Source of the DNA: Candidatus Kryptoniota bacterium
Lineage (GTDB): Bacteria > Bacteroidota > Ignavibacteria > Kryptoniales > JAKASW01
Assembly (NCBI GenBank): GCA_024641705.1
Contig: JAHECO010000006.1
Span: 1-64,000, forward strand
Length of the DNA stretch: 64,000 bases
Reading direction: 5' to 3'
This document shows, piece by piece, positions 15,729 to 49,294 of this stretch (the first letter of the stretch is position 1; every line of letters begins with the position of its first letter). Both the position numbers and the translations under genes were made by a program. The notes below the pieces were generated by a model that did not search any database, had not been told where the DNA came from, and saw nothing but the letters and a program-made list of their open reading frames with translations.

Positions 15729-15850
15729 TTGACTTTAGAAAAGGAATGTATTAAATAGCCGAACCGGTTGAGTGCACGAATGTAGAAGAGCACTAAATGG
15801 GATAAGATCAATATGTTAGATTGCATATGGCAAATCATAGAGCGGTTTAG
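15729..15850 (+). promoter_or_regulatory. Promoter with paired operators for the GH51/GH92 unit
   Basis: TTGACT (15729-15734), a 17-base spacer and TAAATA (15752-15757) form a sigma-70-like promoter. Directly after it is a palindromic site CCGAACCGGTTGAG (15759-15772) covering the expected start of transcription. A second site, ATAGAGCGGTTTAG (15837-15850), lies exactly 78 bases downstream of the first. The same promoter and site layout recurs before the receptor gene at 21413. The sites have the central CG of LacI-family operators, and the LacI gene at 31358 is the likely source of the repressor. Confidence 0.72.
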
Positions 15851-16073
15851 TGAACGCCTCTGAGTTTTCCGAGCTACTTTGAACTGCTAAACAGAATCTG
15901 TAGGTGCCCTAAGGGGAATCCCGTTGTTGGCCCATCATGCTAAGCGGGGTCCAATACAGTTTGAACAACTCTTTCAAGAATCACGCAAGAATAAATCACA
16001 ATAACCACATGATTCAAAGTTAGCAAAGTTGTCGAAGCTCCCCTTCAAATCAATTAACTTCCCGGAGAATCAA

Positions 16074-18077
16074 ATGAAGAAAATGTTCCTGCTGGTCCTG
16101 CTTTTGGCTGTTTCACAATTTCCCGTGAAGGCTCAAACGAACGAGAGCACAGTCACATTAGACGCTTCGGCGCAGGAGTATAAGATAGACAAAAATATCT
16201 ACGGCCAGTTTGCCGAAGATCTCGGCCATCTTATCTATGGAGGTATATGGGTGGGACCGGAGTCCTCAATACCTAATATCGATGGGATCCGGAAAGATGT
16301 GGTTGACGCCTTAAGAGAAATTAGAGTGCCGGTCCTGCGCTGGCCGGGCGGATGTTTTGCGGACCTATACCACTGGATGGATGGTATAGGGCCGCGTGAT
16401 AAGAGACCCGAGACGATCAACACGAATTGGGGCGGCGTGACCGACGATAACGGTTTCGGGACGGCGGAATTCCTGCAGTTGTGCAAGTTGGTCGGTTGCG
16501 CACCGTATTTTACCGGGAATGTCGGCAGCGGCACCGTGAAGGAATTGTCGCAGTGGGTCGAGTACGTCAACTCCGACAATATCAGTACGATAACTAAGTT
16601 GCGGGAGAAGTATGGACGGGCGAAGCCGTGGGGAGTAAAATACTGGGGATTGGGAAATGAAAGTTGGGGATGCGGCGGACACATGATGCCTGAATACTAT
16701 GCCGACCAGGTTAGGAGATACGGGACTTACATGCACAATTACGGGAACTACAGATTGTTCAAAATCGCTTCGGGCCCGAACGGAGACAACTATCTCTGGA
16801 CAAGCGTGCTTATGGGCGATGCCGGTCCGTACATCGACGGATTGTCACTGCACTACTATGCGTCCGCAACTCAACACACCGCCGCCGACTTTGATGAATC
16901 GGGGTGGTTCGACATCATGAAGAAGAGCTTGAAGATGAACGAGCTGATCACAAAACATTCCGCGATAATGGACAAATATGATCCGCTTAAAAGGGTCGCG
17001 CTTGTTGTTGACGAATGGGGTACATGGTACAAAGTCGAGCCCGGTACAAATCCTCATTTCCTTTACCAGCAGAACACGATGCGCGACGCAGTTGCCGCCG
17101 CGTGCAATCTGAATATCTTCAACAACCATTGTGATCGGGTCAGAATGGCTTGCATTGCACAGGTCGTCAATGTATTGCAGTCAATGATTCTTACGAAGGG
17201 AGACAAGATGATTCTTACCCCCACTTACTATGTATTCGACCTGTACAAGGTCCATCAAGATGCCATGATGGTGCCGGTCCAGGTACGATTGAGCAATTAT
17301 GAATTCGACGGTGGGACTCTTCCCGCGATAAATTGTTCTGCGTCAATTGACAGCACGGGCATGATGCATATCTCTCTGGTCAACATAGATCCGGATTCGA
17401 CTGAGAATGTGGCAGTGGATCTGAAAGCCTTTGAGGCAGATAAGATTTCCGGCAAAATATTGACTGCCGGTAAAATGAATGCACATAATACATTTGAAAA
17501 TCCTAACGCTGTAAAACCTGTGCGCTTCGCAGATTTCAAGTTAAAAGACAATAATCTGGAAGTTGACATGCCCCCGATGTCTGTGGTGACCTTGGCTGTG
17601 AACGGAACCATAAGGATGAAAGCGGGTACTGCGATCGAATTGAAAAATCCGGGACATGGAATTGCCTATGACTACTACGAATTAGGGGAAGCCGAAAGAC
17701 TACCCGGGTTTTCAGCGCTCAGCCCGGATTCATCAGGCATGCTTGATAGTCTCGTTTTGCCGAAGGAAGTCAGAGAAGATAATTTCGCCGTAAGGTATGA
17801 AGGCTTCATAAGAATACCCCAAAGCGGACTATACACTTTCTACACTAATTCCGATGACGGCTCCGCTCTTTTGATTGACGGCCGGGTCGTCGTGAATAAC
17901 GATGGCAGGCATGCGCCGGAGGAAAGATCGGGATATGCCGAATTATCGGCAGGATACCACAGAATAGAAGTAATGTATTTCCAGGCTACCGGTGGAATGG
18001 AAATGAGCGCAAGCATCAAGGGACCAAACTTGAAGAAGCAAATTATCCCGGCAGGGATGCTGTTCACAACACACTAG
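16074..18077 (+). CDS. GH51 alpha-L-arabinofuranosidase with C-terminal PA14 domain
   Basis: This secreted enzyme of about 667 residues should release arabinofuranose from arabinan or arabinoxylan side chains. It has a signal peptide ([21 protein letters not shown]). The TIM-barrel catalytic domain shows [15 protein letters not shown], acid/base E196 in WGLGNESWG and nucleophile E314 in [10 protein letters not shown] beta sandwich follows and then a PA14 domain at about 540-665 ([20 protein letters not shown], then [13 protein letters not shown]), probably for sugar binding. I chose the ATG at 16074 because CCGGAG lies before it and it starts the signal peptide. The leader from the proposed promoter is about 310 bases. 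A GH92 gene follows 103 bases downstream. Confidence 0.95.
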
Positions 18078-18180
18078 GAGCAATGCTTGCTTGCTCGTGA
18101 TGACTTTGCCGGATCTTGCGGAAGGGGAATGCGCAAGAGTGCCGCAGATATTTCCGAAAAGAGATGACAGGTGAAAGGTG

Positions 18181-20589
18181 ATGGCGAACAACCCGAAAGC
18201 AGGAAGTTTGGAGAGGGACGGCAAGAGAAAAAACCGTGGGCAGGCCTTGATGCCGCAGGGGATCTGCACGGAGTCTAGGCGAGTGGGTGTAGGATCGCGT
18301 AATCCGTGGCAAATACTGGCCGTGCTTATGATGTTGGTTGGAGCCTCCGGGGCATGTCTCTCCTCGCCGTACCATCACAATTTGCGCGCGGGCGCCGGGC
18401 CGCAAAAAGTGGATACTACGAAGAATCTGGTCGGGTTTGTAGACCCTTTCATCGGCACGGATGCAGGGGGCAATACGATCCCTGCAGTTGGCCTCCCCTT
18501 TGGCATGACGCAGTGGACCCCGCAAACATGTACTTCAGAGGAGAAATGCGAACCGCCCTATGTTTACACCGATACTGTCATGAGTGGATTCAGAGGGTCT
18601 CACTGGTTGAGCGGTTCCTGCACTCAAGATTATGGGAGTTTCACGTTGATGCCCATTACCGGCAAACTGACGACAAGTTGGGCTGAATATCAGACGGCCT
18701 TTTCTCACGATGATGAACTGTCCATGCCGTATTATTACCGCGTCGGGTTACCGCGATACCGCCTGGTTGCGGAACTGACTGCAACAGAACGTTGCGCCAT
18801 GATGCGCTTCACGGCCGAACGAAGCGGTGATTTCTATTTGTTGATAACACCAAACAGCGATAGAAAAAAAGGCTACGTTAAGATCGACCCGGCGCAAAAC
18901 GAGATTGTCGGTTATAATCCGGCTTATCGAATTTACCAGGGGGCAGGGGAGCCTGCCGGTTTCAGCGGCTATTTTGCTGCCCAAGTGATGAAGCCTTTCG
19001 ATCGATGGGGAACATTCAGCGAGGGTCACACTTTTTCTAACGACAGCATGAACGGCGGCGAAGATATTGGTGCCTATGTCCATTACAGGGTTACGAAAGG
19101 AGAACAGATACTCGTCCGTATCGGAACGTCGTTTACAAGCATCGATGAGGCCCGCAAAAATCTTAAAGTCGAAATACCGGCATGGAATTTTGACGGAATC
19201 CGAGACAAGGCCAGGGCGACCTGGGAAAAGGCCCTGAACAGGATAAGCGTGACGGACGGGTCATCCGGGAACGAGCGGATATTTTACACAGCCTTGTATC
19301 ATACGATGCAGCAACCGCGCATGTTCAGTGATGTTGACGGCACCTACCCGGCTTTTTCCAAACAGTATGAGACTGCCAGGTTGGATAGTGGACACTACTA
19401 CGATGACTTTTCTATGTGGGATATTTTCCGGGCAGAAATTCCTTTATATGAACTGCTGTCGCCTTCTCTTGTCAACGATTGGGTGAGATCATTTATCCTG
19501 AAAGGGGACGATGGAGGATGGTTACCGATATTCCCCTGCTGGAACAATTATACATCGGAAATGATTGGTGACCACAGCATTGCGTTCATTGCGTCTGCCT
19601 ATAACAAAGGCATTCGGAACTATGACGTGCTTCAGGCGTACGGCCTCATGCGGAAGAATGCTTTCGATATTCCCGATGCGAAAGACTACGCCGATGGAAA
19701 GGGGCGGCGCGCCCTCCCGAGTTACTTGCGATATGGGTATGTCCCTCTTGAAGATCATGTGCCGTTCGCATTTCACTCCAATGAGCAGGTGTCTCGTACT
19801 CTTGAATATGCTTTCGACGATTACAGCCTGGCTACTGTGGCTGACAGCTTAGGGAAGATGTCTGATTACAGGACTCTTATGAAGCGAGCGAAGAATTATA
19901 GAAACGTGTTCGATTCATCGATAGGAATGGTAAGAGGCAGGCATATGGACGGGAGTTGGGCCGCAGACTTCAATCCCGACAAACGGGAATCGTATATTAC
20001 AGAAGGAACTCCGAGGCAGTGGTCTTTCTATGTGCCGCAGGACATACCCGGCCTTGCCGCACTAATGGGAGGACGTGCACGGATGGAAGAAGAATTGGAC
20101 AGCCTGTTTACAGGGGACAATTATAATCCGGGAAATGAACCGGACCAGCAGGCTCCGTTCATGTATGACTATACTCCTCACCCATGGAAGACTCAATTGC
20201 AGGTGCGCAGAATCCTGCACGATGATTACTCGGACGGCCCTGCGGGTCTGCCCGGCAATGACGATGCGGGAGAAATGTCGGCATGGTATGTCTTTGCTGC
20301 TCTTGGGTTTTACCCGGTCAATCCGGTATCGAACGATTACCTGTTGAGTTCACCTCTTTTCGGCAAGATCGAAATCCGCATCGGCGGGAATACTCCTCTC
20401 CATATTGTGACTCATAAGGTCTCGTCAACATCGAAATACATTTATAAAGTGGAATGGAACGGGAAGCCGCTTTTGTATGACTACATAAGCTTCGGCTCGC
20501 TGTTGAAAGGGGGTACGCTTGAATTCTTTCTGGGAGACCAGCCATCCAACTGGGGAAGCAAAAAAGGAGAACAGCCCGCGGGTTTGTAA
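18181..20589 (+). CDS. GH92 family alpha-mannosidase-like enzyme
   Basis: This protein of about 802 residues matches GH92, mostly calcium-dependent exo-alpha-mannosidases. The N-terminal beta sandwich begins VDPFIGTDAGGNTIPAVGLP, and the (alpha/alpha)6 catalytic domain carries GNEPDQQAPFMYDY and later GLPGNDDAGEMSAWYVFAAL, matching the conserved GNEP and GNDDxGxMSAW motifs. A hydrophobic export segment ending GASGAC suggests a lipoprotein, but about 40 hydrophilic residues precede it. The true start may therefore be a later codon such as the GTG near 18283. It is probably co-transcribed with GH51. Linkage specificity is not readable. Confidence 0.93.
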   Translation: MANNPKAGSLERDGKRKNRGQALMPQGICTESRRVGVGSRNPWQILAVLMMLVGASGACLSSPYHHNLRAGAGPQKVDTTKNLVGFVDPFIGTDAGGNTIPAVGLPFGMTQWTPQTCTSEEKCEPPYVYTDTVMSGFRGSHWLSGSCTQDYGSFTLMPITGKLTTSWAEYQTAFSHDDELSMPYYYRVGLPRYRLVAELTATERCAMMRFTAERSGDFYLLITPNSDRKKGYVKIDPAQNEIVGYNPAYRIYQGAGEPAGFSGYFAAQVMKPFDRWGTFSEGHTFSNDSMNGGEDIGAYVHYRVTKGEQILVRIGTSFTSIDEARKNLKVEIPAWNFDGIRDKARATWEKALNRISVTDGSSGNERIFYTALYHTMQQPRMFSDVDGTYPAFSKQYETARLDSGHYYDDFSMWDIFRAEIPLYELLSPSLVNDWVRSFILKGDDGGWLPIFPCWNNYTSEMIGDHSIAFIASAYNKGIRNYDVLQAYGLMRKNAFDIPDAKDYADGKGRRALPSYLRYGYVPLEDHVPFAFHSNEQVSRTLEYAFDDYSLATVADSLGKMSDYRTLMKRAKNYRNVFDSSIGMVRGRHMDGSWAADFNPDKRESYITEGTPRQWSFYVPQDIPGLAALMGGRARMEEELDSLFTGDNYNPGNEPDQQAPFMYDYTPHPWKTQLQVRRILHDDYSDGPAGLPGNDDAGEMSAWYVFAALGFYPVNPVSNDYLLSSPLFGKIEIRIGGNTPLHIVTHKVSSTSKYIYKVEWNGKPLLYDYISFGSLLKGGTLEFFLGDQPSNWGSKKGEQPAGL

Positions 20590-21009
20590 ACTGGCAATGT
20601 CCGAGAGTTTTCGCTGACTAGCTCAACGGATTCGGTTAACCATGAGAGCGATGTACTTCTCCTCGGTGGGGAAGGGCCGGCGAAAGGGCGCGATGGTTCG
20701 TTGGCATTATTTTCGATGAGCCGCTGAGCTCCAATAGTGTCATGATGTGAAGGGAGTTTACATTCGTGTATGTAGGGTTGTCTTCCATGCAGTGTCTCTT
20801 TCTCAGGAATAGCACCATTGACAGCATCGACTATCCGGATGTCGGGTGCCGGCGGAATCCCGCCTCCGAATCAGCTCATGCCCATGTCGGGCGTCGGATT
20901 TCCAACACGAGATCAATGAGACTGCCCGTCTTTCTCGCGGACATGAATGATTTTGGCAAAAACAGTCTTCAAGAAATCATCAGTTGGAGATTAAAAAAGC
21001 GCAAAACGC
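20590..21009. other. Intergenic region upstream of the receptor promoter
   Basis: About 420 bases without a supportable gene. I see no terminator, tRNA or recognisable gene remnant. The short frame 20766-21035 lacks a ribosome-binding site and any family feature. The region ends at the promoter described next. Confidence 0.35.
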
Positions 21010-21131
21010 TTGACTTTGAAAAGGGAATATATTAAATACCTTAAGCGGTTTAGGAAAGAACAACAAGAGTAATGGAAGTGCCTGAGATACAATGTATTAC
21101 ACGATATAACAAAAGAAATAGAGCGGTTTAG
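21010..21131 (+). promoter_or_regulatory. Promoter with paired operators for the TonB receptor unit
   Basis: TTGACT (21010-21015), 17 bases, then TAAATA (21033-21038), with nearly the same spacer as the promoter at 15729. Site 1 is CTTAAGCGGTTTAG (21040-21053). Site 2 is ATAGAGCGGTTTAG (21118-21131), identical over 14 bases to the downstream site of the GH51 promoter and again exactly 78 bases after site 1. Two sites at this distance suit looping by a LacI-family tetramer. The leader to the receptor start codon is about 365 bases with no visible gene. Confidence 0.75.
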
Positions 21132-21412
21132 TTTGTGTCTTTGATACCACCCGGCATGCCAGGATTTACAGGCGCCTTTCTGCTTTCTGCGACAAACACT
21201 TCAAATGGTGCATTATCACACCCGAACAATTCCCAGTTCCCAAAAACGAGAATGGTCGGTCGGGGAAGATACGACTCTGATCAAATAGATCGGTGCGCCA
21301 TTATCGGCAAAAGGAAAAGGCTCAATAAATGATAGTGTCGCACAGCCATCTGCTCCCTGCTGGTGGCGTGCATGAGTAATCGAGAGTACTTGATTTTTGG
21401 AAAGGTGATAGC

Positions 21413-24406
21413 GTGGAACAACTACTCATCAAAAAGTATTGGATATTACTTCTTCTCCTAATCCCAACTACACTTTTTGCATCCGGAAAGCTAAAGGGTG
21501 TCATTATCGATTCAACGACGCACGAGCCATTGGTGGGTGCGAATATAATGCTTGTCGGGACTTCGCATGGAGCTGCTTCCGACTTGGACGGAAATTACCT
21601 GGTCCAGGCCATTTCGGCAGGTCTTTATGTTGTAAAATGCTCCTATATAGGGTATAACTCTAAGGAAGCGAAGGTAACCATCTCTGACGACAAAACTACC
21701 GAGCTTAACTTCGCGCTGAAGTATGGTGTCGGGGTTAGAGGCAAAGAGGTGGTAATTACAGCTCAAGCTACCGGTCAGGCTGCAGCAATTAACCAACAGG
21801 TCACGTCCGACAGAATTGAAAACGTCGTCTCTGAGCAGAAGATCCGAGAATTGCCTGATGCAAATGCCGCAGAGGCGCTTGGACGTCTGCCGGGAATTTC
21901 CGTAGTTCGTTCGGGCGGGGAAGCGAGTGAGATCACCCTGCGCGGTCTGAGCGAAAGCTACACAACAATCACATTGGACGGGACGAAATTGTCGCCGACC
22001 GATGCCGATTCCCGGGGAGTTGACTTGAGCACGATCGCGCAGGGGTCACTCTCGGGGATCACGGTGACAAAGGCCATCACGGCGGACATGGACGGTTCGG
22101 GGATTGCCGGCAACGTGAACTTCGAGACAAAGACTGCTCCTGAAATACGCTCAATTCAAGTAACTGCCCAGGGATCGTATGGGGCACTTGACAACACATA
22201 CAAGCAGTACAATTTTTATGGAAACTATGGAGAGCGGTTCTTCAACGATGTGCTCGGCGTGCAACTGTTTGGAAACATTGAACAACGCGACCGCAGCAGC
22301 GAAAACTATAATGTCGCCTACGATCAGACGCTCCTCAAAAACACCAACTGGGGAATCAGCGACTTCACGATCCAGTATGCCCCCGAATTAAGAAGACGAA
22401 GGGGAGAGAGGTTGCTGCTTGATATAAGGACCCCGGACGGGGGCGTGATAAAATTCAATGGCGATTTCAACAGGACGGAACGCCGACTGTCGATGATTGG
22501 GCGTGACTATCCCGTCGAATGGGCCAGTCCTGAGTACACGTTCACAGGGCAGGATATCAACACGAACATTCTTACCCTGTCGCTGGAGGGTAAGAACAAC
22601 GCTGCCGGTTGGCAGGTGAATTGGAATTTCTCGTTTACGCAGTCGAGCACCGACGAACCCTACAACTACAGCTTGGATTTCGTTGAGCCGTCAACGCTTG
22701 ATTCAGCCGGCAATGTCACCTCGGGAATGAAGACTGTTCCCGTGTCGCTGTGGCACGGTCCATATCAAGCTCTGATCCCATATGCTGTCGACAACTTCAG
22801 TTACGCGTATCTCGATTACGCGAACATCAGGACCAGCAACAACCTTGATTTCCAGAGGACCGCCACGGTCGACATCAAGAGAGACTACTCCCTCTCGAGT
22901 CTGAGCGGTGAACTTAAGTTCGGAGGGAAGTATAACGGCCATTATCACAGGAGAAAGAGTAATTATGTTTTCGCGCCGTATTATAACGGGGCGCAGGTCA
23001 TGAGCTCCATGGTGCTGCCAAACGGTTCTATCGTGCCGAAGGATTGGGCAGCTTACGGCTTTGCGAATCTTCAGAAGGCTGGCGGGCTGATACTCATGAC
23101 GAATTTCATCGGCAGCTCCACCCGCAATGTGTACGGTTTGTACTCGCTAAATCCGCTCATTGATCCGAACCTCATGAGGAACTGGTACAGCATCAGCATC
23201 AATGGCATCGACCCAAATTCAAAGGCGCGCGAGTACTCGGATGGCACTTCAGAGGATGGAACAGACTACAGTGCCATGGAAAGCGTAGGAGCGGCCTATC
23301 TCATGAACACGTTGAATTTAGGGACTTTCGCGACCCTGATTGCGGGAGTACGACTCGAGGTCGATAATGATACTTACCAGGCGTACTATACCACGGAGCC
23401 GCTTTCTATCTACTCTCTATTCAGCGACACCACCGCGGCACACACTGAATCAATCCTTCTTCCTAATTTCCATCTTATCCTTCGGCCCACAAACTTCATG
23501 AACGTCCGCCTTGCCGCCTACCGCGGCGTTACCCGGCCCGACTTCAATTACAGACTCCCTACCTATCTCCTTGTCGGCGTGGCCGCGTACGTCAGCAACC
23601 CGCTCGCGAAAATTGGGAACACCGCTTTGAGGAACGGGAGTGCTTGGAACTATGAACTCAATGTCCAGTTTTACGGAAACGATATCGGCCTTCTTTCGCT
23701 GTCCTCGTACTTCAAGCAGATCGATAATCAAGTTGAACTCCTGAACGGGCTTCCTGTCTTCCCTAACACCAATCTAGCCGACAGCATGGGCGTAAGGTTT
23801 TTAGGTGGCCAGCGCCCCTTCAGTAGTACATACTACCTTACCTATCCATATAATTCATCCAAGCCGACTTACGTGTGGGGCTTTGAACTTGAACAGCAGA
23901 CGAATTTCCTTTTCCTACCCGGATACCTGAGGGGTCTCACATTGAGCTACAATCTGTCGCTTGTCAAGAACCAGACCTACGTCCCTTTTGCAAAGATAGT
24001 CTACGATACCGTCTACATTGCAGGTTTTCCGATCGCCAAACCAATAGCCCAGCTCGACGAACAAAAGAACAGATTAGTCAACTCGCCTGAGTTTTTCTGC
24101 AACGTTGTGCTGGGATACGATATAGGCGGCTTCTCTGTGCGACTGTCGTACTTTTACCAAGATAATTACTACAACGGCTTCTCAAGCGATCAACGCTCGA
24201 ACCCGATTCAGAATGCCTTTGCGCGGATGGACCTTGTGCTGAAACAGACATTGAGTGAGCACCTGGCTATCGGATTAAATATCAATAACCTGACTAATTA
24301 TAATGAGGGAACGAGCCTCCAGAATGCAATTACTGGATGGACACTGCAAACATCAAGCGTCAGGTACGGCACCGACGCTGACCTCTGGCTCGGGGTCACA
24401 CTCTAG
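21413..24406 (+). CDS. TonB-dependent receptor (glycan locus, no SusD partner)
   Basis: This 997-residue outer-membrane receptor starts with GTG after AAAGGTG. It has a signal peptide (ILLLLLIPTTLFASG), a carboxypeptidase-regulatory-like domain at about 24-110 (THEPLVGANIMLVGTS, DLDGNYLV), and a plug at about 125-245 with RELPDANAAEALGRLPG and RGLSESYTTITLDGTKL. These last motifs are typical of the Xanthomonas/Caulobacter-type TonB receptors (TIGR01782). A barrel of more than 700 residues follows. The paired operators upstream tie it to the arabinofuranosidase unit, so it probably imports an oligosaccharide. No SusD-like gene follows; the next gene is a T9SS-exported beta-helix protein. Confidence 0.94.
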   Translation: MEQLLIKKYWILLLLLIPTTLFASGKLKGVIIDSTTHEPLVGANIMLVGTSHGAASDLDGNYLVQAISAGLYVVKCSYIGYNSKEAKVTISDDKTTELNFALKYGVGVRGKEVVITAQATGQAAAINQQVTSDRIENVVSEQKIRELPDANAAEALGRLPGISVVRSGGEASEITLRGLSESYTTITLDGTKLSPTDADSRGVDLSTIAQGSLSGITVTKAITADMDGSGIAGNVNFETKTAPEIRSIQVTAQGSYGALDNTYKQYNFYGNYGERFFNDVLGVQLFGNIEQRDRSSENYNVAYDQTLLKNTNWGISDFTIQYAPELRRRRGERLLLDIRTPDGGVIKFNGDFNRTERRLSMIGRDYPVEWASPEYTFTGQDINTNILTLSLEGKNNAAGWQVNWNFSFTQSSTDEPYNYSLDFVEPSTLDSAGNVTSGMKTVPVSLWHGPYQALIPYAVDNFSYAYLDYANIRTSNNLDFQRTATVDIKRDYSLSSLSGELKFGGKYNGHYHRRKSNYVFAPYYNGAQVMSSMVLPNGSIVPKDWAAYGFANLQKAGGLILMTNFIGSSTRNVYGLYSLNPLIDPNLMRNWYSISINGIDPNSKAREYSDGTSEDGTDYSAMESVGAAYLMNTLNLGTFATLIAGVRLEVDNDTYQAYYTTEPLSIYSLFSDTTAAHTESILLPNFHLILRPTNFMNVRLAAYRGVTRPDFNYRLPTYLLVGVAAYVSNPLAKIGNTALRNGSAWNYELNVQFYGNDIGLLSLSSYFKQIDNQVELLNGLPVFPNTNLADSMGVRFLGGQRPFSSTYYLTYPYNSSKPTYVWGFELEQQTNFLFLPGYLRGLTLSYNLSLVKNQTYVPFAKIVYDTVYIAGFPIAKPIAQLDEQKNRLVNSPEFFCNVVLGYDIGGFSVRLSYFYQDNYYNGFSSDQRSNPIQNAFARMDLVLKQTLSEHLAIGLNINNLTNYNEGTSLQNAITGWTLQTSSVRYGTDADLWLGVTL

Positions 24407-24475
24407 AGCGAACACTATGTTGTGTGCCAACAAATCTAATTCACCAAATCACATTCACTCTTCAAGGAGGATCAA

Positions 24476-26164
24476 ATGAAAGCAGTATTACGTGTTATGT
24501 TGCCAACACTGCTGTTGCTGTCGACTGTGACAGTAGCCTTCGGTCAACATACTATGTTTCTCTCTCGGCCCACCGGTGTGACTTATCTTAGCGACATCAT
24601 TATGAGAGATACTCTCTCTAATGGTGCACGCGCTGATTCACAGAGAGTTTACGTCCTTCAGCGTGGCGGGACTTGGTTCTGGGACGGTACAATCACAAAT
24701 ACCGGGTGGACACTGGACATCGAAGCAGCGGACACCGGGAGCGGTGGGAAGGCGATTATCTATGGCACTCCGGCAGCGGGTACCACGAGCGCGCCGTATC
24801 AATGGGTTAACGTCTCAGGGGACGTCATAGTCAAGAACGTCATTATTAGCGGATACTTTGATCCTGACACGTCTGCCTTCAATAGCTATGGTGGCCCGTT
24901 CATTTTGTTCCGTTGCGCAACCCCCGGGCCTCGGATGGAATTCGACGGGAACGTGTTCTCGAATGTGGGACAGGCCGTCGCTAGCGCCTTCGCTGCGGTC
25001 CCCACAATAAAATTCCAGGACAACATTATTGTGAACCAGGGTCTTCCACCGCGCGTCGATGTAGGCAATGGGCGCGTGGTTGATATTCGGAATGTGTCTG
25101 TTGACAGCCTTGTCTTTATCAATAATACCATTTGCTATGAATTTGACAGGGTCGCAAGGCATATTGCCAGCGTTGGTCGACTGAACCACTTCATCTTCGA
25201 TCACAACACCGTCTACGAAAATGGCGGCAGGTATGGTTTGATCGCGCTTGGTGCGGTAGGTGCCAGTGTGCAGATTACCAACAATTTGTTGATCGATCCG
25301 ATGGCAGTCGGATCTGATACGTGTACAAAACGCCAATCAGATTTCAAAGAGATGAACGAATGGTGGCCGGATGGAAAGGTTAAAATGGCATGGATCTACA
25401 ACTCGCCAGTTACCTCAGACACTCTCCCCGGAAAGGTCGCGACAAATTGGGATATCGCCAAAAATTACTGGTATGTGACGCCGCAAATTCAGGCTGTTTG
25501 GGATTCATGCGTCAAGATGAACTGGGATCCCAGCCTTTCCGTCGGACGGCAGCTGACAGACAGCATCAAGAGCAGGATCGACACGTCGATGGCCTTCTTT
25601 AAACTAGATAAATTCTCGTTTGCAAACGTGCCGGCTCCGTTTGCTGGGACCGTTCTTTGGGCACTCAAGCCGATATCGGTGGGTGGCACAGGAGGTGCCT
25701 CAAGTGGTGGCATATATGTACCGTATGACAAGCGCCTCACCACCTACTATGCGGACACCATGGACTGCAGCTACTCAACATCATCCCCGGCCTACACGGG
25801 CGGCGGCGGCGGATTCCCTGCCGGCGATCTCAATTGGTTCCCTAACAAAAAGCAACAATGGCTGATAACGGGAGTCAAGAATATCCCCACAACTGTTCCG
25901 GCCAAGTTTTCATTAGAGCAAAATTATCCGAATCCATTTAACCCTTCTACCTACATTAAAGTAAACCTGAGGCAGGCTGGCGTCATGAGTCTCACGGTAT
26001 ACAATGTGCTTGGGCAAGTTGTTGAGGTTGTTGATCAGGGTTATAAACCCGCTGGAGTATATGCGTACAATATCAATATGGATCGATACGCGAGCGGAGT
26101 TTACTTCTACACGCTTCGGCAGGGACCTAACGTCATTACAAAAAAAATGCTTCTCCTTAAGTAG
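24476..26164 (+). CDS. Secreted parallel beta-helix protein with T9SS sorting domain
   Basis: This 562-residue protein has a strong ribosome-binding site (AAGGAGGATCAA) and a signal peptide ending AFGQ. The middle (about 40-290) shows repeated short hydrophobic strands with DNIIVN, INNTICYEF, FDHNTVYENG and ITNNLLIDP, typical of right-handed parallel beta-helix proteins such as pectate-lyase-like folds. No lyase or GH28 catalytic motif is clear. The last 80 residues form the type IX sorting domain: LEQNYPNPFNPSTYIKVNLR, then TVYNVLGQVV and ASGVYFYTL, ending KKMLLLK. It should be cell-surface or secreted. It follows the receptor by 70 bases in the same operon and could be a surface binding protein or polysaccharide-active enzyme. 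Confidence 0.88.
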   Translation: MKAVLRVMLPTLLLLSTVTVAFGQHTMFLSRPTGVTYLSDIIMRDTLSNGARADSQRVYVLQRGGTWFWDGTITNTGWTLDIEAADTGSGGKAIIYGTPAAGTTSAPYQWVNVSGDVIVKNVIISGYFDPDTSAFNSYGGPFILFRCATPGPRMEFDGNVFSNVGQAVASAFAAVPTIKFQDNIIVNQGLPPRVDVGNGRVVDIRNVSVDSLVFINNTICYEFDRVARHIASVGRLNHFIFDHNTVYENGGRYGLIALGAVGASVQITNNLLIDPMAVGSDTCTKRQSDFKEMNEWWPDGKVKMAWIYNSPVTSDTLPGKVATNWDIAKNYWYVTPQIQAVWDSCVKMNWDPSLSVGRQLTDSIKSRIDTSMAFFKLDKFSFANVPAPFAGTVLWALKPISVGGTGGASSGGIYVPYDKRLTTYYADTMDCSYSTSSPAYTGGGGGFPAGDLNWFPNKKQQWLITGVKNIPTTVPAKFSLEQNYPNPFNPSTYIKVNLRQAGVMSLTVYNVLGQVVEVVDQGYKPAGVYAYNINMDRYASGVYFYTLRQGPNVITKKMLLLK

Positions 26165-26189
26165 TGGATTAGCGCCACTGCCGTGGAAA

Positions 26190-26215
26190 GGACTGCCGAC
26201 GAAAGTCGGCAGTCC
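26190..26215 (+). terminator. GNRA-capped hairpin after the T9SS gene (processing or attenuator site)
   Basis: An 11-bp perfect stem GGACTGCCGAC / GTCGGCAGTCC closes on a GAAA tetraloop. There is no T-tract, so full rho-independent termination is doubtful; it may stabilise the 3' end of the receptor/beta-helix mRNA or reduce read-through to the next gene, 45 bases on. Confidence 0.6.
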
Positions 26216-26259
26216 CGTGTTATGTCAGCAACGGAACAATGGGTCAAAGGAGATATCGT

Positions 26260-28605
26260 TTGGCAAGGAGACTGCGCGCGCTTGCTCTGAAATACGCCCT
26301 GGTTGCGATTACCGTTTGTGCGGGAATTGTCAATGCCCAGATGGTCAATCCGTCAATTGACGACCCGAACGAGCCATTTTCCTATTACAGTAAGCCAGCC
26401 GATGTAATTGGAGTGATGGATGGTAGATGGGGAACTGAGGTGACCCCTGAAGGTTATCTGTACACGGGATATGGTGAACTGATGTTCTTCACCGGGGATC
26501 CGCCAGAACCTGTCAATCACAGGGTGAAGACACCCGCTGACGGCTATTTGCCGGTAATTTCGTACAGCTTCCAGAGAGACGGCGTTCGGTATAAGGTGAC
26601 AGAGTTTGCCGCGACCCTTGACGGTAACCCCGAGAGCCCGTTAATGAATTTTGTTCGAGTAAGAATAAAGGACGCGGCAAAGCAGGAGCGCGCAGCCTTT
26701 TTTGGAGTGGGGATCAGATATCAGGGAAATTCCAACACGGAAGACGGAACGGCTGACCATTGCTTTGTTCGTCCGATAAAAATGATGTACTTAGGAGGCC
26801 CCGAACAGGCGGGTGCGGTTTTCAATCCCGGTTGGGTATATGGATTTTCAGGCGACACATTTCTCCGCTCGGACAGCGTGATGTACATTTTCCCGAGCAA
26901 TCCGTCTCCAGAGCGGATGATGACTTTGATGACCAAATACAACCGTCCTCAGAATCTGAAACCTAGAACGATGCAAGTACTGCCGACGACTCCGGTTGGC
27001 GTCGTCAACTACATGGTACGTTTAAAACCCGGAGAGGAACGAACTCTCGACTTCAAGATGCCGTATACTCCAATACCGGCGGGAAGCCCGCTTGTAAATG
27101 AGTTACGCAGCGCCAGGTTTACTGAATATCTGAAAAAGACCGTGGATTTCTGGCGGAGTACTTTGTCCCAGGGAATCGACTTTGGCGTGCCTGAGTCAAA
27201 AGTAGTCAATACGTTCAAGTCAAACCTGATATATGATTTGATTGCTCGCACCGAAGAGGACGGCTGCTACATACAGAGGGTGAACGATTTTCAATACCGC
27301 AAATTTTATTTGCGAGATGCGTCTTTTATTGTCAGAATGTACCTTCTGTCCGGGTATTTCAAGATCGCGCGCCAGTGTCTCCAGTTCTTTCCCCGGTGGC
27401 AGCAGCCCGATGGAAACTTCGTTTCACAGGGGGGACAGTTCGACGGGTGGGGTCAGACGATGTGGATATATGGGCAGTACTACAGGTTCACGCGTGACAA
27501 GGAGTTTGCACAGGAGGTGTACCCGTCGATATTGAAAGCCTTCAATTGGCTGGTTAAGGCGCGTAAGTCTGATCCGCTCCATCTTATGCCGGAGACTTCT
27601 CCCGGCGACAACGAAGACATCGAGGGACACATAACGGGACATAATTTCTGGGCTCTTGATGGATTGCAAAATGTGATAGCGATTGCCAAAGGACTCGGCA
27701 AAACGGCAGACGCGGCGATGTTCCAAAGCGAGTATGACAATTTCTACCAGACGCTCATGATGAAACTTGAAGTGGTCACCTCTAGAACGGGGGGATACAT
27801 CCCGCCTGGGCTTGACGAAGCAAACCCTTACGGACAAGACTGGGGCAACATGCTCACGCTTTACCCGGAGCTGCTGTTCCCGCCGTTCAGCAGGATGGTG
27901 ACAGCCACACTTGATTCAACCCGCGCGAAATACAGGGAAGGGATTATGACGTATGGGAATGGCAAGTTCCTGCATGATTATCTGACAATGCGAAATACCC
28001 AGAACGAACTGGTTCGCAACGAACAAGAGACGGCTCTGAAGGAGTTCTACGCGCTGCTTGTCCATACGAGTTCGACCAATGCGGGGTTTGAATTTGCGAT
28101 TCACCCTTGGGGTACGAGAGAGTTTGATGGCAATCTGGCACCGCACGGATGGTATGCAGCGGAGATTCGTTCGCTCATAAGAAACATGATGGTGCGCGAA
28201 CAGCAGGGAGATCTCCATCTCCTTTCGTGTATTTCCCCCGATTGGGTGAGGGATGGACGGGAAATTTCCGTCCGCCATGCGCCGACGTATTTCGGCGAGG
28301 TAAACTTCGTTCTTGCTTTCAGGAAGGGCGGCGCGACTCTGACCTTGAACGACAGCTTCACCAGTAGTCCAGAGCATCTTGTCTTGCATCTGCCTTGGTT
28401 CATGGAAGTGAAATCGGTCACGGCTGACGGGAAGGATTTGAAGATCAGCGATTCCGAGGTAAATCTTCCGCTCAACTCCAGAAAAGTCGAGATTGAATGG
28501 GTAAGAAAAGGAGATGTGCCGGCACTGAGCTACGAAGATGCCGTCAGGAATTACGAGAAGGAGTACAGAGAGAAGTACGAGAAGTTCCTGGAAACAGGGA
28601 GGTAG
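26260..28605 (+). CDS. Secreted six-hairpin glycosidase-like protein
   Basis: This protein of about 781 residues has an N-terminal signal peptide (ALKYALVAITVCAGIVNAQ), a beta-rich N-terminal domain (about 25-290) and an (alpha/alpha)6-type domain (about 300-720) with helices such as RDASFIVRMYLLSGYFKIA and a DGWGQTMWIYGQYY segment. This layout is that of six-hairpin glycosidases (GH15/65/78/127-like). The acidic residues in ETSPGDNEDIEGH are candidates for catalysis, but I cannot name the family. I prefer the TTG at 26260 because AAAGGAG lies seven bases before it and it gives a compact signal peptide; the in-frame ATG at 26239 is the alternative. It lies in the operon of the receptor and probably trims imported glycan in the periplasm. 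Confidence 0.75.
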   Translation: MARRLRALALKYALVAITVCAGIVNAQMVNPSIDDPNEPFSYYSKPADVIGVMDGRWGTEVTPEGYLYTGYGELMFFTGDPPEPVNHRVKTPADGYLPVISYSFQRDGVRYKVTEFAATLDGNPESPLMNFVRVRIKDAAKQERAAFFGVGIRYQGNSNTEDGTADHCFVRPIKMMYLGGPEQAGAVFNPGWVYGFSGDTFLRSDSVMYIFPSNPSPERMMTLMTKYNRPQNLKPRTMQVLPTTPVGVVNYMVRLKPGEERTLDFKMPYTPIPAGSPLVNELRSARFTEYLKKTVDFWRSTLSQGIDFGVPESKVVNTFKSNLIYDLIARTEEDGCYIQRVNDFQYRKFYLRDASFIVRMYLLSGYFKIARQCLQFFPRWQQPDGNFVSQGGQFDGWGQTMWIYGQYYRFTRDKEFAQEVYPSILKAFNWLVKARKSDPLHLMPETSPGDNEDIEGHITGHNFWALDGLQNVIAIAKGLGKTADAAMFQSEYDNFYQTLMMKLEVVTSRTGGYIPPGLDEANPYGQDWGNMLTLYPELLFPPFSRMVTATLDSTRAKYREGIMTYGNGKFLHDYLTMRNTQNELVRNEQETALKEFYALLVHTSSTNAGFEFAIHPWGTREFDGNLAPHGWYAAEIRSLIRNMMVREQQGDLHLLSCISPDWVRDGREISVRHAPTYFGEVNFVLAFRKGGATLTLNDSFTSSPEHLVLHLPWFMEVKSVTADGKDLKISDSEVNLPLNSRKVEIEWVRKGDVPALSYEDAVRNYEKEYREKYEKFLETGR

Positions 28606-28752
28606 ATGGATCAGCGATTGTACATTCGGAATGACCGATCCTGTGAATTGCAAGTTCCTCCGAGCTTCGAAGGAACGATCCGCATCAGTTCTGCGGCTCA
28701 GACCGCCAGAGCTGCCTAAGAAGACATTTCACTAAGAAGTAAAGGGGATGCA

Positions 28753-29889
28753 GTGGACAAGGACAAACGACTTACCTCGCTCGACGTTCTTCGGGGCGCA
28801 GCCATCGCCGGCATGATGATGGTCAATAATCACGGCCCAACTTCAAGTGTTTATACACAAATAGAACACTCGCCGTGGAACGGGTGGACATTCGCCGACT
28901 GGGTGTTCCCCACGTTTCTATTCGTGGTAGGGGTCGCAATGGTGTTTTCTTTCCGCCATCGTGCTGAAGATGCCTCCACCAGAAAAAAACTCTACGCGCA
29001 CATAATACGCCGTTCTTTAATCCTCTTTTTCCTCGGACTGATCCTGAACGCGGTTTCGTACAATAACTTTCCCTTTTTCATCCTTTCAACTATCCGCATT
29101 CCTGGAGTATTGCAGCGCATAGCTGTCTGTTATCTTGTAGCATCACTGATCATGCTCAACTCCGGAATAAAAGCGCAAGCATACTGGACAGTTGGCCTAC
29201 TCGCAATCTACTGGTTGATGGTGAAGCTCATTCCGGTTCCCGGTTACGGAGCCGGTGTAATGCATCCTGCGGGCAGCCTCGTGTGGTTTGTGGACTCACA
29301 TATTTTTCGGGGACACACATATATATTTGCGGCGTTCCCGGGATTCGATCCGGAAGGTCTGGTTAGTACCATCCCTTCCATAGCGACGACTCTTTCTGGA
29401 GTGCTTGCAGGACACTGGTTGTTGGCCGACAGATCGCAGGAAGAGAAAACCGTTTGGTTGTTGGTGCTTGGAAACTCCCTGATCCTTGCAGGTGCAGTTC
29501 TGGGAATATGGCTCCCGATCAACAAGAACATGTGGACCAGCTCTTACAGCGTTTTTATGGCGGGAATGGATCTCGTGTGTCTCGGAGCTCTGTATTGGCT
29601 GATCGATGTGAAAGGATACAAGAAGTGGGCGACACCGCTGGTGATTTATGGTATGAACGCAATCACTGTTTATTTCCTTTCAGAAGTCATAGCTAAACTA
29701 ATCAAAATAGTTCAGCTGGGAGGAGCAGCTGGAAATTCAGTGTCGCTCCGTCATTACATCTTCCATACGTTTTTCCTGTCGATCGCCAGCCCTATTAATG
29801 CCTCACTCTTGTATGCAATTTCATTTATGCTGTTTATGTTCCTCATCTCATTGTTTATGTGGCAAAGAAAATGGTTCGTGAAAATCTGA
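28753..29889 (+). CDS. DUF5009 / heparan-N-acetyltransferase-like membrane protein
   Basis: This 378-residue integral membrane protein of about 10-11 helices starts with GTG after AAAGGGG. It begins RLTSLDVLRGAAIAGMMMVN and continues NHGPTSSVY and FADWVFPTFLFVVGVAMVFS, the signature shared by DUF5009/NagX-like proteins and heparan-alpha-glucosaminide N-acetyltransferases. Members are thought to transfer an acetyl group across the membrane to a sugar, though most bacterial ones lack a proven substrate. Position between a glycosidase and a GH28 gene suggests that it modifies or de-modifies a sugar from the locus. Function beyond membership is inference. Confidence 0.85.
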   Translation: MDKDKRLTSLDVLRGAAIAGMMMVNNHGPTSSVYTQIEHSPWNGWTFADWVFPTFLFVVGVAMVFSFRHRAEDASTRKKLYAHIIRRSLILFFLGLILNAVSYNNFPFFILSTIRIPGVLQRIAVCYLVASLIMLNSGIKAQAYWTVGLLAIYWLMVKLIPVPGYGAGVMHPAGSLVWFVDSHIFRGHTYIFAAFPGFDPEGLVSTIPSIATTLSGVLAGHWLLADRSQEEKTVWLLVLGNSLILAGAVLGIWLPINKNMWTSSYSVFMAGMDLVCLGALYWLIDVKGYKKWATPLVIYGMNAITVYFLSEVIAKLIKIVQLGGAAGNSVSLRHYIFHTFFLSIASPINASLLYAISFMLFMFLISLFMWQRKWFVKI

Positions 29890-29902
29890 CCGGAACAATT
29901 GG

Positions 29903-31270
29903 ATGAGAGCTGCTTACATAATCATTTTTCTTCTGACAAACCTGTCGCTACGTTTTTTATGGCCGGCGAGGGAAGGCAAAAAGGATGGCGAAAAATCCGA
30001 ATGCAACATCGCTGACTTCGGCGCTATAGGTAACGGCAAATATATGAACACTATAATGATACAAGAAGCTATCGATGAAGCATATGAAAACGGCGGCGGG
30101 AAAGTTGTCATTCCCAAAGGGGTCTTTCTGACCGGAAGCATTGTACTTAAATCGGGAGTTGACCTTCATGTTCTAAGAGGTGGGACGCTTCTCGGAAGCA
30201 CGAACCCTTTTGACTATAAAAAGATCAGGTCCGGTCCCGCTCTGGTTCTTGCAGATAGCTGCAAGAATATTTCAATCACCGGCAGCGGAACTATTGATGG
30301 GCAGGGGCTCGAACTGGCACTGGCTATCGACAGCCTCTATCATATCGGCAGGTTGAACGATATTCGGTATGACTATTATAGAATGCGCCCTTCGACGGCT
30401 GTTCGTCCTAAGGTCATTGATATCAGCGAATGCTCGAATATTGCAATCAGCGGGGTCACTATTAAAAACAGTTCTTCGTGGGTAGAAGAATATAGAAGAT
30501 GTGAGAATCTGCGGATCGATCACGTCAAGGTAATAAGTGTCGCATACTGGAACAACGACGGGATGGATATTTGTGACTGCAGGAATGTCAGTATAACCAA
30601 CTGCTTTGTGAATTCGGCAGACGATGGTATTTGCTTGAAAACTTTTTCTCCGAAATATCCGGATGACAGTATAAGCGTTTCAGACTGCACAATACGGAGC
30701 AGCGGGAGTGCGATCAAGCTTGGCACAGATTCCCGCGGAGATTTTGAAAACATCAGGATAAAGAAGATACGGGTTTACGATACTTTCCGCTCGGCAATTG
30801 CCATTGAATGTGTAGACGGTGGAAGAGTTAACAATATTCAAGTGTCAGATGTGATAGCCAGAAACACCGGTAATGCAGTGTTCATCCGTTTGGGGCATCG
30901 AAACATGAAAGCGGGAGCTGGCACAGTCAAAAACGTTACTATTAAGAATATGAAAGTGAGTGTGCCGTTCGGTCGTCCCGACATTAATTATGATTTGAGG
31001 GGACCAGCACTACCGTTTTTCCATAATACATTCCCGTCTTCTATTACGGGTATTCCCCATCATGATGTCGAAAATGTGACACTGAGCAATATAGAGATCA
31101 CTTACCCTGGGAGAGGGACTAAGGGAATGGCCTACGCCCCGCTCAGCCGTCTACACCAGGTCCCGGAAGACACTTCCGGCTATCCGGAATTCTCCATGTT
31201 TGGTGAGCTTCCAGCCTGGGGTTTTTACGTGCGCCATGTTGAGGGCCTCGTAATGAGAGATGTGCACTAA
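29903..31270 (+). CDS. GH28 family polygalacturonase-like enzyme (exported)
   Basis: This 455-residue right-handed beta-helix protein begins with a hydrophobic N-terminal segment (AAYIIIFLLTNLSLRFL), probably a signal peptide or anchor. GH28 features are NIADFGAIGNGKYMNT at about 35, GTIDGQG near 130, the NND of YWNNDGMDICDC and the acidic pair in NSADDGICLK. The usual GHG histidine motif is replaced by GSAIKLGTDS. That occurs in divergent GH28 members acting on galacturonides or rhamnogalacturonan, so the substrate is pectin-like but uncertain. The stop codon lies inside the first operator of the next transcription unit. Confidence 0.9.
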   Translation: MRAAYIIIFLLTNLSLRFLWPAREGKKDGEKSECNIADFGAIGNGKYMNTIMIQEAIDEAYENGGGKVVIPKGVFLTGSIVLKSGVDLHVLRGGTLLGSTNPFDYKKIRSGPALVLADSCKNISITGSGTIDGQGLELALAIDSLYHIGRLNDIRYDYYRMRPSTAVRPKVIDISECSNIAISGVTIKNSSSWVEEYRRCENLRIDHVKVISVAYWNNDGMDICDCRNVSITNCFVNSADDGICLKTFSPKYPDDSISVSDCTIRSSGSAIKLGTDSRGDFENIRIKKIRVYDTFRSAIAIECVDGGRVNNIQVSDVIARNTGNAVFIRLGHRNMKAGAGTVKNVTIKNMKVSVPFGRPDINYDLRGPALPFFHNTFPSSITGIPHHDVENVTLSNIEITYPGRGTKGMAYAPLSRLHQVPEDTSGYPEFSMFGELPAWGFYVRHVEGLVMRDVH

Positions 31271-31354
31271 AGCGGTTTAGTATATTTCGTATATGGTTTT
31301 TAAAGATTATATTACAATAAGTTAATGCTTCCATCACAAGATAATCCGGTTTAG
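31267..31354 (+). promoter_or_regulatory. Paired operators upstream of the LacI/iol unit
   Basis: Site 1 is CTAAAGCGGTTTAG (31267-31280), a near-perfect palindrome that overlaps the stop of the preceding GH28 gene. Site 2 is ATAATCCGGTTTAG (31341-31354), ending three bases before the LacI start codon. The two AGCGGTTTAG/TCCGGTTTAG cores are 74 bases apart, close to the 78 bases of the other two promoters. TACAAT at 31313-31318 is a possible -10; no good -35 is seen. The arrangement suggests autoregulation by the LacI protein. Confidence 0.7.
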
Positions 31355-32515: not shown

Positions 32516-33439
32516 TTGAAATCCAAAATGACCGACATATTTGATAGGGCTTACGGTAAATACGGGGTCGGTGCGTTCAATGTGTTTAATGCCGAACAAA
32601 TTCATGGCGTATTCAGGGGTGCTTCCGATAGCCGGTTGCCGATAATAGTTCAGATTACACCCGTCTCCCGCAGTTATATGAATCCAAAATTCCTGGAAGG
32701 GATGATAACCGCCGCCGAACTGGTTTACGAGTCCGTTGATTTCTCTCTTCACCTCGATCACGGGAATGTGGAACACTGCAGAAGTGCCATCGAATCCGGT
32801 TTCTATAATTCTGTCATGATAGACTCCTCCCGTGAAGACTTTGAAAAGAATATTTCGATAACCTCCGAGATTGTGAAACGGGCTCACGACAGTAACGTCG
32901 CGGTCGAGGCGGAACTCGGCATTCTTGGTGGAAAAGAAGATGATATCAACATGGGCTCCGATAGCGCACGATACACAGATCCGGACCAGGCAGTCGAGTT
33001 CGTGAACCGCACCTGTTGTGACAGCCTCGCCGTTGCCGTAGGTACGAGCCATGGCGCATACAAATTCAAAGGCGAATCCGGACTGAGCTTCGACGTTTTG
33101 AAGCGGATTCAATCCCTCTTACCGCGTTTCCCTCTCGTGCTTCACGGCGCATCCGCAGTGCGCGGCGATGAAATCTCGAGAATAAACAATGCCGGCGGAA
33201 AACTGAAGGCGGATGCAAAAGGAATTACAAACGAAGACCTCTTGAACGCTGTTCGATGCGGAGTCACAAAGATCAACATTGCGACCGACATGAGACTTCT
33301 CTGGACAAGAGTTCAGCGGGAGTTTTTCAGAAATTCTCCTGAATTATTCGATCCTGTGTTGCCAGGAAAGACATATATGGATGAATTAGCGAATTTCGTG
33401 AGGCGCAGATGTCAATCATTAGTCTTAAGTGAACCATGA
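32516..33439 (+). CDS. iolJ: Class II aldolase, 2-deoxy-5-keto-D-gluconate-6-phosphate aldolase (IolJ-like)
   Basis: This 307-residue zinc-dependent class II aldolase resembles fructose-bisphosphate aldolase: VGAFNVFNAEQIHGVF near the N-terminus, the zinc/catalytic SLHLDHGNVEHC at about 78-89, VEAELGILGG near 127, GTSHGAYKF and LVLHGASAV with the later zinc histidines, and KINIATDMR for phosphate binding. In this operon it should cleave the inositol-derived phosphate to dihydroxyacetone phosphate and malonate semialdehyde. Its assignment as IolJ rather than a general FbaA rests on the neighbours. The start is TTG (32516) or ATG (32528); neither has a good ribosome-binding site. It overlaps iolB by four bases. 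Confidence 0.88.
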   Translation: MKSKMTDIFDRAYGKYGVGAFNVFNAEQIHGVFRGASDSRLPIIVQITPVSRSYMNPKFLEGMITAAELVYESVDFSLHLDHGNVEHCRSAIESGFYNSVMIDSSREDFEKNISITSEIVKRAHDSNVAVEAELGILGGKEDDINMGSDSARYTDPDQAVEFVNRTCCDSLAVAVGTSHGAYKFKGESGLSFDVLKRIQSLLPRFPLVLHGASAVRGDEISRINNAGGKLKADAKGITNEDLLNAVRCGVTKINIATDMRLLWTRVQREFFRNSPELFDPVLPGKTYMDELANFVRRRCQSLVLSEP

Positions 33440-34326
33440 AGATCGATGTAAAATGTAAATTGCTGGTTCACCCTGGAGCAGAAGGATCCGGCACTTATCA
33501 CAGCATAACCGTTCCGGACACCGGCTGGAAACACCTTAACTTCGGCGCCAGGGAAATGCGAAGAGGTGATAAATGGAATTACGACACCGGACAGGACGAA
33601 CTATGCATCGTTCTCATGAGCGGAAAGTTTTCCATTTTATCAAAGTGGGGTGAATGGAGAACCGCGAACGGTCGGGAAAATGTGTTCAGGGGACTTCCTC
33701 ACGCTGCATATTTGCCGCCGAACACGAAGTTTACTCTTGTGGCAGAAAGTGATTCCATTGACATAGCCTACGGCTATACGAAAGGGGAAAACAGATTTAA
33801 GGGATTTTTCGTAACGCCCGAGGCCGTGCAGAATTACGGAATCGAACTTCGCGGCGGCGACAATGCTTCGCGACAGATAAATTCAATTCTACCTCCCGGT
33901 TCTGCATGTCATAAACTCGTCTGTGTCGAAGTTTATACGCCGTCGGGCAATTGGAGCTCTTTCCCGGCGCACAAACACGACAACCGCAAAGTCAACGAAA
34001 AGGGAAAATTGGTCGAAGCCGAATTGGAAGAAATCTACTTCTATAAGTTCGACAAGCCGCAGGGCTTTGCTTTACAAAAGGTATATACGGACGACAGAAG
34101 TCTGAATGAAATTGCGGAGCCGCACACGGACGATGTGGTGCTTGTTCCGCGGGGTTATCATCCGGTCTCCGCGGGACATGGCTACAACACCTATTATCTG
34201 AATTTCCTGGCCGGTAGTGATCAATCGTTGGCCAACAGCGATGACCCGGACCACAAATGGATTTACGGGACATGGAAGAAAATAGACGAGCGGTTGCCTC
34301 TCGTGACCTTGGAAATGAACAAATGA
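33436..34326 (+). CDS. iolB: 5-deoxy-glucuronate isomerase
   Basis: This 296-residue bicupin enzyme converts 5-deoxy-D-glucuronate to 2-deoxy-5-keto-D-gluconate, the fourth step of myo-inositol breakdown. Family features are LNFGAREMRRGDKW near 35, the second-cupin metal site FPAHKHDNRKV (about 175-186) followed by EAELEEIYFYKFDKPQGFA, and VVLVPRGYHPVSAGHGY near 235-250. The length is normal for IolB. It overlaps iolJ by four bases and lies 10 bases before iolC. Confidence 0.95.
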   Translation: MKIDVKCKLLVHPGAEGSGTYHSITVPDTGWKHLNFGAREMRRGDKWNYDTGQDELCIVLMSGKFSILSKWGEWRTANGRENVFRGLPHAAYLPPNTKFTLVAESDSIDIAYGYTKGENRFKGFFVTPEAVQNYGIELRGGDNASRQINSILPPGSACHKLVCVEVYTPSGNWSSFPAHKHDNRKVNEKGKLVEAELEEIYFYKFDKPQGFALQKVYTDDRSLNEIAEPHTDDVVLVPRGYHPVSAGHGYNTYYLNFLAGSDQSLANSDDPDHKWIYGTWKKIDERLPLVTLEMNK

Positions 34327-34336
34327 AAATCATCCG

Positions 34337-37204: not shown

Positions 37205-37222
37205 CGAAGGCTGGTTTGGTAA

Positions 37223-38692: not shown

Positions 38693-38712
38693 ATTAATAA
38701 ACCGAATGGAGT

Positions 38713-39612: not shown

Positions 39613-39632
39613 AAACCTCGAAATAAGGTAAA

Positions 39633-43398: not shown

Positions 43399-43422
43399 CA
43401 CCGGAGAGAGAGTCCAGACTTT

Positions 43423-44826: not shown

Positions 44827-44841
44827 AAGAGTAGCGTAAAT

Positions 44842-47028: not shown

Positions 47029-47066
47029 TCGAACATCAATAAAAGTTCAATGAAGGATTGAGGCCC

Positions 47067-49260: not shown

Positions 49261-49294
49261 CCATTTTTTGCCTTATTTTTGAAACGGAGTTGTA

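Follow-up and report, generated by a model that had tools for sequence, protein, structure and literature searches.

Three gene units with paired sites

We analysed a 64,000-nucleotide stretch of the genome of a Candidatus Kryptoniota bacterium (the window: bases 1-64000 of contig C63, JAHECO010000006.1, in a genome of 4.62 Mb and 95 contigs), in which three gene units each carry a pair of similar 14-bp sites. The GH51 unit holds a GH51 and a GH92 gene. The receptor unit encodes a TonB-dependent receptor, a surface protein sorted by the type IX secretion system (T9SS), a putative hydrolase, an HGSNAT-like acetyltransferase and a GH28 protein. The regulator-iol unit starts with a LacI-family regulator gene at 31358 and continues with an aldolase gene, iolB, C, D, A, E and G, then GH92, GH28, symporter and GH27-like genes. 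Order, strand and spacing suggest that the genes of each unit form operons. We propose, with a probability of about 0.85, that the sites are operators of one local inositol-linked LacI-family regulon whose regulator is the 31358 protein; repression, cooperation of the paired sites and an inositol-derived inducer would complete the switch. The features are listed below, where the foreign matrix is a weight matrix with training sites taken exclusively from genomes other than the window's.

15729..15757, + strand: promoter of the GH51 unit, TTGACT-N17-TAAATA, read from the sequence with the geometry found at the receptor units of eight genomes
15759..15772, + strand: first operator (O1) of the GH51 unit, CCGAACCGGTTGAG, one base past the -10 box; a weak match, ranked 17th by the foreign matrix
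15837..15850, + strand: second operator (O2) of the GH51 unit, ATAGAGCGGTTTAG, 78 bp from O1; identified by matrix and pair ranking
16074..18077, + strand: GH51-type alpha-L-arabinofuranosidase with a PA14 domain (Pfam PF06964, PF07691); the start codon taken is ATG, and a TTG at 16029 could give a longer protein
18178..20589, + strand: GH92 alpha-mannosidase-family protein (Pfam PF07971, PF17678)
21010..21038, + strand: promoter of the receptor unit, TTGACT-N17-TAAATA, read from the sequence and kept in eight genomes
21040..21053, + strand: O1 of the receptor unit, CTTAAGCGGTTTAG, centred at about +2; identified by sequence, geometry and foreign matrix
21118..21131, + strand: O2 of the receptor unit, ATAGAGCGGTTTAG, 78 bp from O1; identified by geometry, matrix and pair ranking
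21413..24406, + strand: TonB-dependent receptor with an N-terminal CarboxypepD_reg-like domain (Pfam PF13715, PF07715)
24476..26164, + strand: surface protein with a T9SS sorting tail (Pfam PF18962); relatives adjoin the receptor in other genomes
26239..28605, + strand: putative glycoside hydrolase, with similarity to GH95/MGH1-like catalytic domains below cut-off (E 0.005 and 0.07)
28753..29889, + strand: HGSNAT-like membrane acetyltransferase (phmmer against PDB: heparan-alpha-glucosaminide N-acetyltransferase, E 3.5e-28)
29903..31270, + strand: GH28-family protein (Pfam PF00295)
31267..31280, + strand: upstream operator of the regulator-iol unit, CTAAAGCGGTTTAG, the top site of the window by the foreign matrix
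31341..31354, + strand: downstream operator of the regulator-iol unit, ATAATCCGGTTTAG, a weak match 74 bp from the upstream operator and immediately 5' of the start codon
31358..32377, + strand: 339-residue LacI-family regulator, the proposed binder of the six sites (Pfam PF00356, PF13377; CcpA/PurR alignment; co-occurrence)
32516..40685, + strand: inositol operon with class II aldolase, iolB, iolC, iolD, MMSDH (iolA), iolE and iolG (NCBIfam)
40894..48467, + strand: GH92, GH28, sodium:solute symporter and GH27-like (melibiase) genes 3' of the iol operon (Pfam)

All six 14-mers named in the earlier note are present. Their starts lie exactly 78 bp apart in the GH51 and receptor units (15759/15837 and 21040/21118) and 74 bp apart in the third (31267/31341), and the downstream 14-mers of both 78-bp units are the same, ATAGAGCGGTTTAG. 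Its assignment of these CG-centred sites to the LacI type is also supported: LacI-family operators are typically even palindromes with a central CG, and most local regulators of the family are autoregulated (PMC4052901). The stop codon of the GH28 gene falls within the operator at 31267. Among the inositol genes, matches above cut-off were obtained for TIGR04378, TIGR04382, TIGR04377, TIGR01722 and TIGR04380, while iolE had TIGR04379 as its best family with a score under the cut-off. The AlphaFold model of the T9SS-sorted protein was of low confidence (mean predicted local distance difference test score 55) and gave no match at E <= 0.001.

The operator module is kept together with the regulator

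The 31358 protein is a LacI-family transcription factor, with the helix-turn-helix (PF00356) and the periplasmic-binding-protein-like effector domain (PF13377) above cut-off and full-length alignments to CcpA and PurR. Its orthologs (64-82%) occur in G005, G011 and G031/G045 and in the named bins L084 to L091 (L086 is the locus of G011, L087 of G005 and L090 of G031); the closest named relatives are metagenome bins labelled 'Bacteroidetes bacterium' and 'Ignavibacteriae/Ignavibacteria'. The recognition helix is almost invariant among the orthologs. In the window, G005, G011, L084, L088, L089 and L090, the regulator gene is followed by iol genes.

A module TTGACW-N17-TAnnnT-N1-[CTRRAGCGGTTTAG] precedes a TonB-receptor gene in eight genomes, the window's included, and the seven others all carry the ortholog (64-82%) and a partner site 65-78 bp from O1. 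The TTGAC element starts 30 nt before O1 in seven of the eight receptor units and 29 nt before it in L090; in some genomes the -10 box matches only loosely. The partner lies downstream of O1 in six genomes, at +78 (the window twice, L084, G042), +76 (G005, G011) or +75 (L089, twice), and upstream in two: L088, where a weakly matching site lies at -67, and L090, where the partner lies at -65. Except in the close pair G041/G042, the spacers between the sites are unrelated in sequence, so selection acts on the sites. The receptor of G005 and G011 is only ~30% identical to the window's yet has the same operators in front, indicating that the regulator, not the receptor, tracks the site.

Across the 13 genomes of the genus comparison, the stringent pair was found in three, exactly those holding the ortholog, and iolD scored above its curated cut-off in the same three only. 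Sites also stand 5' of the regulator gene itself: the window has the pair there, and L084 and L085 have one strong site apiece. The sites are CG-centred palindromes near promoters of putatively co-regulated genes and are conserved with the regulator, as LacI-family regulons have them. This co-occurrence of regulator, operator pair and iolD, with the sites before regulator genes, points to the 31358 protein as the likely binder and upholds the earlier proposal of a single LacI-family regulon joining the receptor, GH51 and regulator-iol units.

Related sites were seen further afield. In other phyla, CTGAACCGGTTCAG or close variants lie upstream of homologs of the regulator (L092:6879, L093:9927, L094:9799 and 9985): the homologs of L092 and L093 (56-57%) have the perfect palindrome CTGAACCGGTTCAG just 5' of their own genes, and that of L094 (55%) has related sites upstream of its own. 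The neighbours of the L092 and L094 homologs look like uronate-utilisation genes, as judged by eye from the starts of the translations. An extra paired-operator promoter is found at L089:852-4475 (G044:C36), 5' of an acetyltransferase-like gene and a GH89 alpha-N-acetylglucosaminidase gene. Together, an acetyltransferase and an alpha-N-acetylglucosaminidase carry out a two-step reaction seen in lysosomal heparan sulfate breakdown.

Pairing, position and conservation exceed chance

We ranked site pairs with leave-one-genome-out matrices over ~300 stretches of 420 bp in the window, where the three pairs took ranks 1 to 3. In each of the seven other genomes tested, the receptor-unit pair outscored the rest of its locus, and six of them had no second scoring pair. 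Two pairs with scores >=10 and 60-80 bp apart were observed, against a mean of 0.02 in Markov-shuffled windows. By the foreign matrix, the four top sites of the window were 31267, 21040, 21118 and 15837.

Genome-wide scans were pattern searches. A loose pair pattern gave seven hits in the 4.62-Mb genome, three being the window pairs and one lying on a tRNA-Ser gene; the rest were taken as chance. The lone 14-mer, allowing <=2 mismatches, occurred 13 times, whereas the reversed control pattern gave 31+29 hits. The 14-mer is thus not enriched by itself, and the case for the sites is built on their pairing, position and conservation. Several candidates were discarded: the pair at G000:C67, which overlaps a tRNA-Ser gene; the pair at G042:C158, which resembles the G000:C67 sequence; a lone site at G000:C35, GTAGAGCGGTTTAG, which has no promoter module and was taken as chance; and a promoter-like match at G046:C252, which sits at the end of an unrelated gene.

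This lack of enrichment weighs against the proposed regulon, as do four other observations. The sites at 31341 and 15759 are the weakest of the six (12th and 17th by the foreign matrix), yet in register. No promoter was recognised at the regulator-iol unit. No sites directly precede the regulator gene in G005, G011, L088, L089 or L090. Finally, the genome holds about nine other LacI-family genes.

The lone 14-mer's background frequency would suit a reading in which the repeats are chance matches or a copied promoter, as would the resemblance between the GH51 and receptor units in their -35/-10 stretches. This reading we consider extremely improbable, given the conservation in eight genomes with unrelated spacers; between these two window units the spacers show no significant similarity (z 1.3), and on this ground promoter duplication was rejected as the source of the shared 78 bp.

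The other LacI-family genes raise the question whether a different regulator uses the sites, such as the LacI-family protein encoded at 49295. We regard this as improbable, since the sites co-occur with the 31358 ortholog and precede its own gene, and the 49295 promoter carries a different inverted repeat. That second LacI-family gene (49295-50341) is followed by ABC sugar-transporter genes, and the region before it (49200-49300) reads TTGACA-N17-TATATT-N1-CTGCGCAA-ATGA-TTGCGCAG, the same geometry with another inverted repeat, apparently a separate operator.

Two further observations concern the flanks. Just 5' of the second LacI gene, 48962-49198 encodes a truncated N-terminal L-arabinose isomerase fragment (~43 matching residues, PF02610, E 7e-13) that looks like a gene remnant. 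Directly 5' of the GH51 unit lies a DDE transposase gene (13868-15370; PF13751, PF05598), which may have brought in or moved this unit.

How the paired operators may act

We propose that a dimer of the 31358 protein binds a 14-bp CG-centred operator, CTRRAgCGGTTTAG, probably derived from the palindrome CTRAACCGGTTYAG. At the receptor and GH51 promoters O1 begins one base past the -10 box and spans the transcription start, its centre at about +2, and from this position a repressor on O1 would be expected to prevent initiation. Repression would gain strength from the partner operator at a distance of 65-78 bp, most likely by contact of two bound dimers in a GalR-like manner and possibly as a mere second block. 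An inositol-derived inducer acting on the regulator would then switch on the receptor/T9SS/hydrolase, GH51-GH92 and regulator-iol units together. Binding by the 31358 protein, repression, induction and cooperation are all predictions from sequence.

The E. coli lac operon likewise has a primary operator overlapping the transcription start and an auxiliary operator, and LacI is a tetramer by virtue of its C-terminal helix. The 31358 protein lacks this tetramerising segment and ends ~4 residues past the PurR-aligned core, like the dimeric PurR; some orthologs have short C-terminal tails, which are not conserved. This PurR-like ending makes a tetramer of the lac type unlikely.

The earlier note had proposed looping. 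We hold this to be less certain: beyond the missing segment, the helical-phase signal is weak and the partner lies on either side of O1. True looping, in which one regulator complex would hold both operators and close a 65-78 bp loop with helical phase essential, we rate as possible at somewhat less than even odds. In its favour, eight genomes keep the pairs, and their spacings cluster at 65-67 and at 74-78 bp, which corresponds to about six and seven turns at 11 bp per turn; a roadblock by itself would not account for a partner that stands upstream in L088 and L090 and downstream elsewhere; and GalR is an example of LacI-family dimers that form a loop together with HU (PMC4693257). Against it stand the PurR/CcpA-like end of the protein, the 74-bp rather than 78-bp spacing of the regulator unit and the phase clustering, with R 0.64-0.70 for repeats of 10-11.3 bp from pairs that are not independent.

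The missing tail and the position of O2 downstream of the start in six genomes would also suit two independent dimers, with O1 blocking initiation and O2 serving as a roadblock or local reservoir, and no mutual contact. Bacillus subtilis IolQ likewise has two sites of differing affinity, in a paper that makes no mention of a loop (PMC5504672). The spacing range is narrow, however, although the spacers are unconserved, and a roadblock alone does not fit because two genomes, L090 and, weakly, L088, have an upstream partner. We give independent dimers, too, a substantial but less than even chance.

Most units have both repeats in the transcribed leader, which could also harbour an RNA element such as a riboswitch, and one of five leaders folds better than its shuffles (L089, z -3.3). 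The other four fold no better than most shuffles, the spacers are unrelated, and the L090 partner lies upstream of the promoter. With no Rfam match and no consistent fold, the RNA element was rejected as very improbable.

Relation to known systems

The closest described case is B. subtilis IolQ (DegA), set beside our regulator by its published description. At the iolX promoter, IolQ has two sites of differing affinity, +4..+30 and +68..+88, with the CG-centred palindrome AGAAAGCGCTTTCT (PMC5504672). Both are LacI-family proteins linked to inositol genes, IolQ as a repressor, with two operators in similar placement (PMC5504672). In contrast, IolQ has another operator sequence and ~59 bp between cores (counted from the printed sequences) against 65-78 bp here, and it controls one dehydrogenase gene, with no outer-membrane receptor and no iol operon. 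A survey described seven LacI-family IolR orthologous groups for inositol utilisation, with Bacteroides as one taxonomic group, and tandem sites before ~20% of regulated operons (PMC4052901). By published description, LacI-family control of inositol utilisation and the use of tandem sites are common to the survey and our system, but the surveyed spacings peak at 13, 22 and 32 bp rather than 65-78 bp (PMC4052901). IpsA of Corynebacterium is LacI-type, reported as dimeric, responds to myo-inositol and has two sites in the ino1 promoter, whereas it is needed for expression of inositol-lipid synthesis genes, not a catabolic regulon, and uses other operators (PMC3899939). The GalR/HU repressosome of E. 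coli gal, with two operators and mutually contacting dimers, is a model for dimeric LacI-family pairs; it differs in its 113-bp loop around two promoters, its need for HU, and its regulator and sugars (PMC4693257). The kind of switch is well known; this example is unusual in that its sites stand 65-78 bp apart, the partner can fall on either side of O1 and the proposed regulon takes in an outer-membrane receptor.

Gene content and the candidate substrate

The earlier attribution of the regulon to pectin/arabinan is doubtful, as the gene content of relatives suggests inositol-containing glycans or lipids instead. A PI-PLC-C1 gene adjoins the regulator in L089 and L091, and further genes of relatives include GH89 and GH29. 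Genes of the Ca2+-dependent phosphoinositide phospholipase C (PI-PLC) family (PF16670, E ~1e-121) were seen at L155:275-1393 and L091:913-2022, beside or close to the regulator. Of 22 genomes searched, two have this family, both with the ortholog, and the window's genome does not; PI-PLC was rejected as a general marker. NAGLU (GH89) was rejected as a specific one, being present in many genomes of the genus with or without the regulator. Directly 5' of the regulator, L075:10507-14298 (G011) and L076:1-3241 (G005) encode glycerol kinase, a glycerol-3-phosphate dehydrogenase-like enzyme and an aquaporin-family channel. In G011, where the families were tested, glycerol kinase matched its equivalog above cut-off and the dehydrogenase-like enzyme fell below; this gene group also includes a phosphoesterase.

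Tentatively, the regulon may be dedicated to the use of glycosylated inositol lipids, such as plant or fungal glycosyl inositol phosphoceramides (GIPCs), glycosylphosphatidylinositol (GPI)-type glycans or phosphatidylinositol, under one inositol-sensing LacI-family repressor. The TonB receptor would import the glycan head group. Phospholipase C, GH92, GH51, GH27 and a GH28-like uronosidase would trim it, as would an acetyltransferase and alpha-GlcNAc-ase pair in the manner of the lysosomal HGSNAT/NAGLU route, and the iol and glycerol genes would consume the core. We hold this unlikely on balance because the window's genome lacks PI-PLC and NAGLU occurs irrespective of the regulator.

No description of a LacI/TonB inositol regulon was found in the literature searched. 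If true, the inositol-glycolipid reading would suggest a bacterial route for a eukaryotic membrane lipid class whose breakdown was not found described in that literature. The proposed regulon ties an outer-membrane receptor and several hydrolases to inositol catabolism, and it specifies a testable regulator-operator pairing for a lineage of uncultured bacteria.

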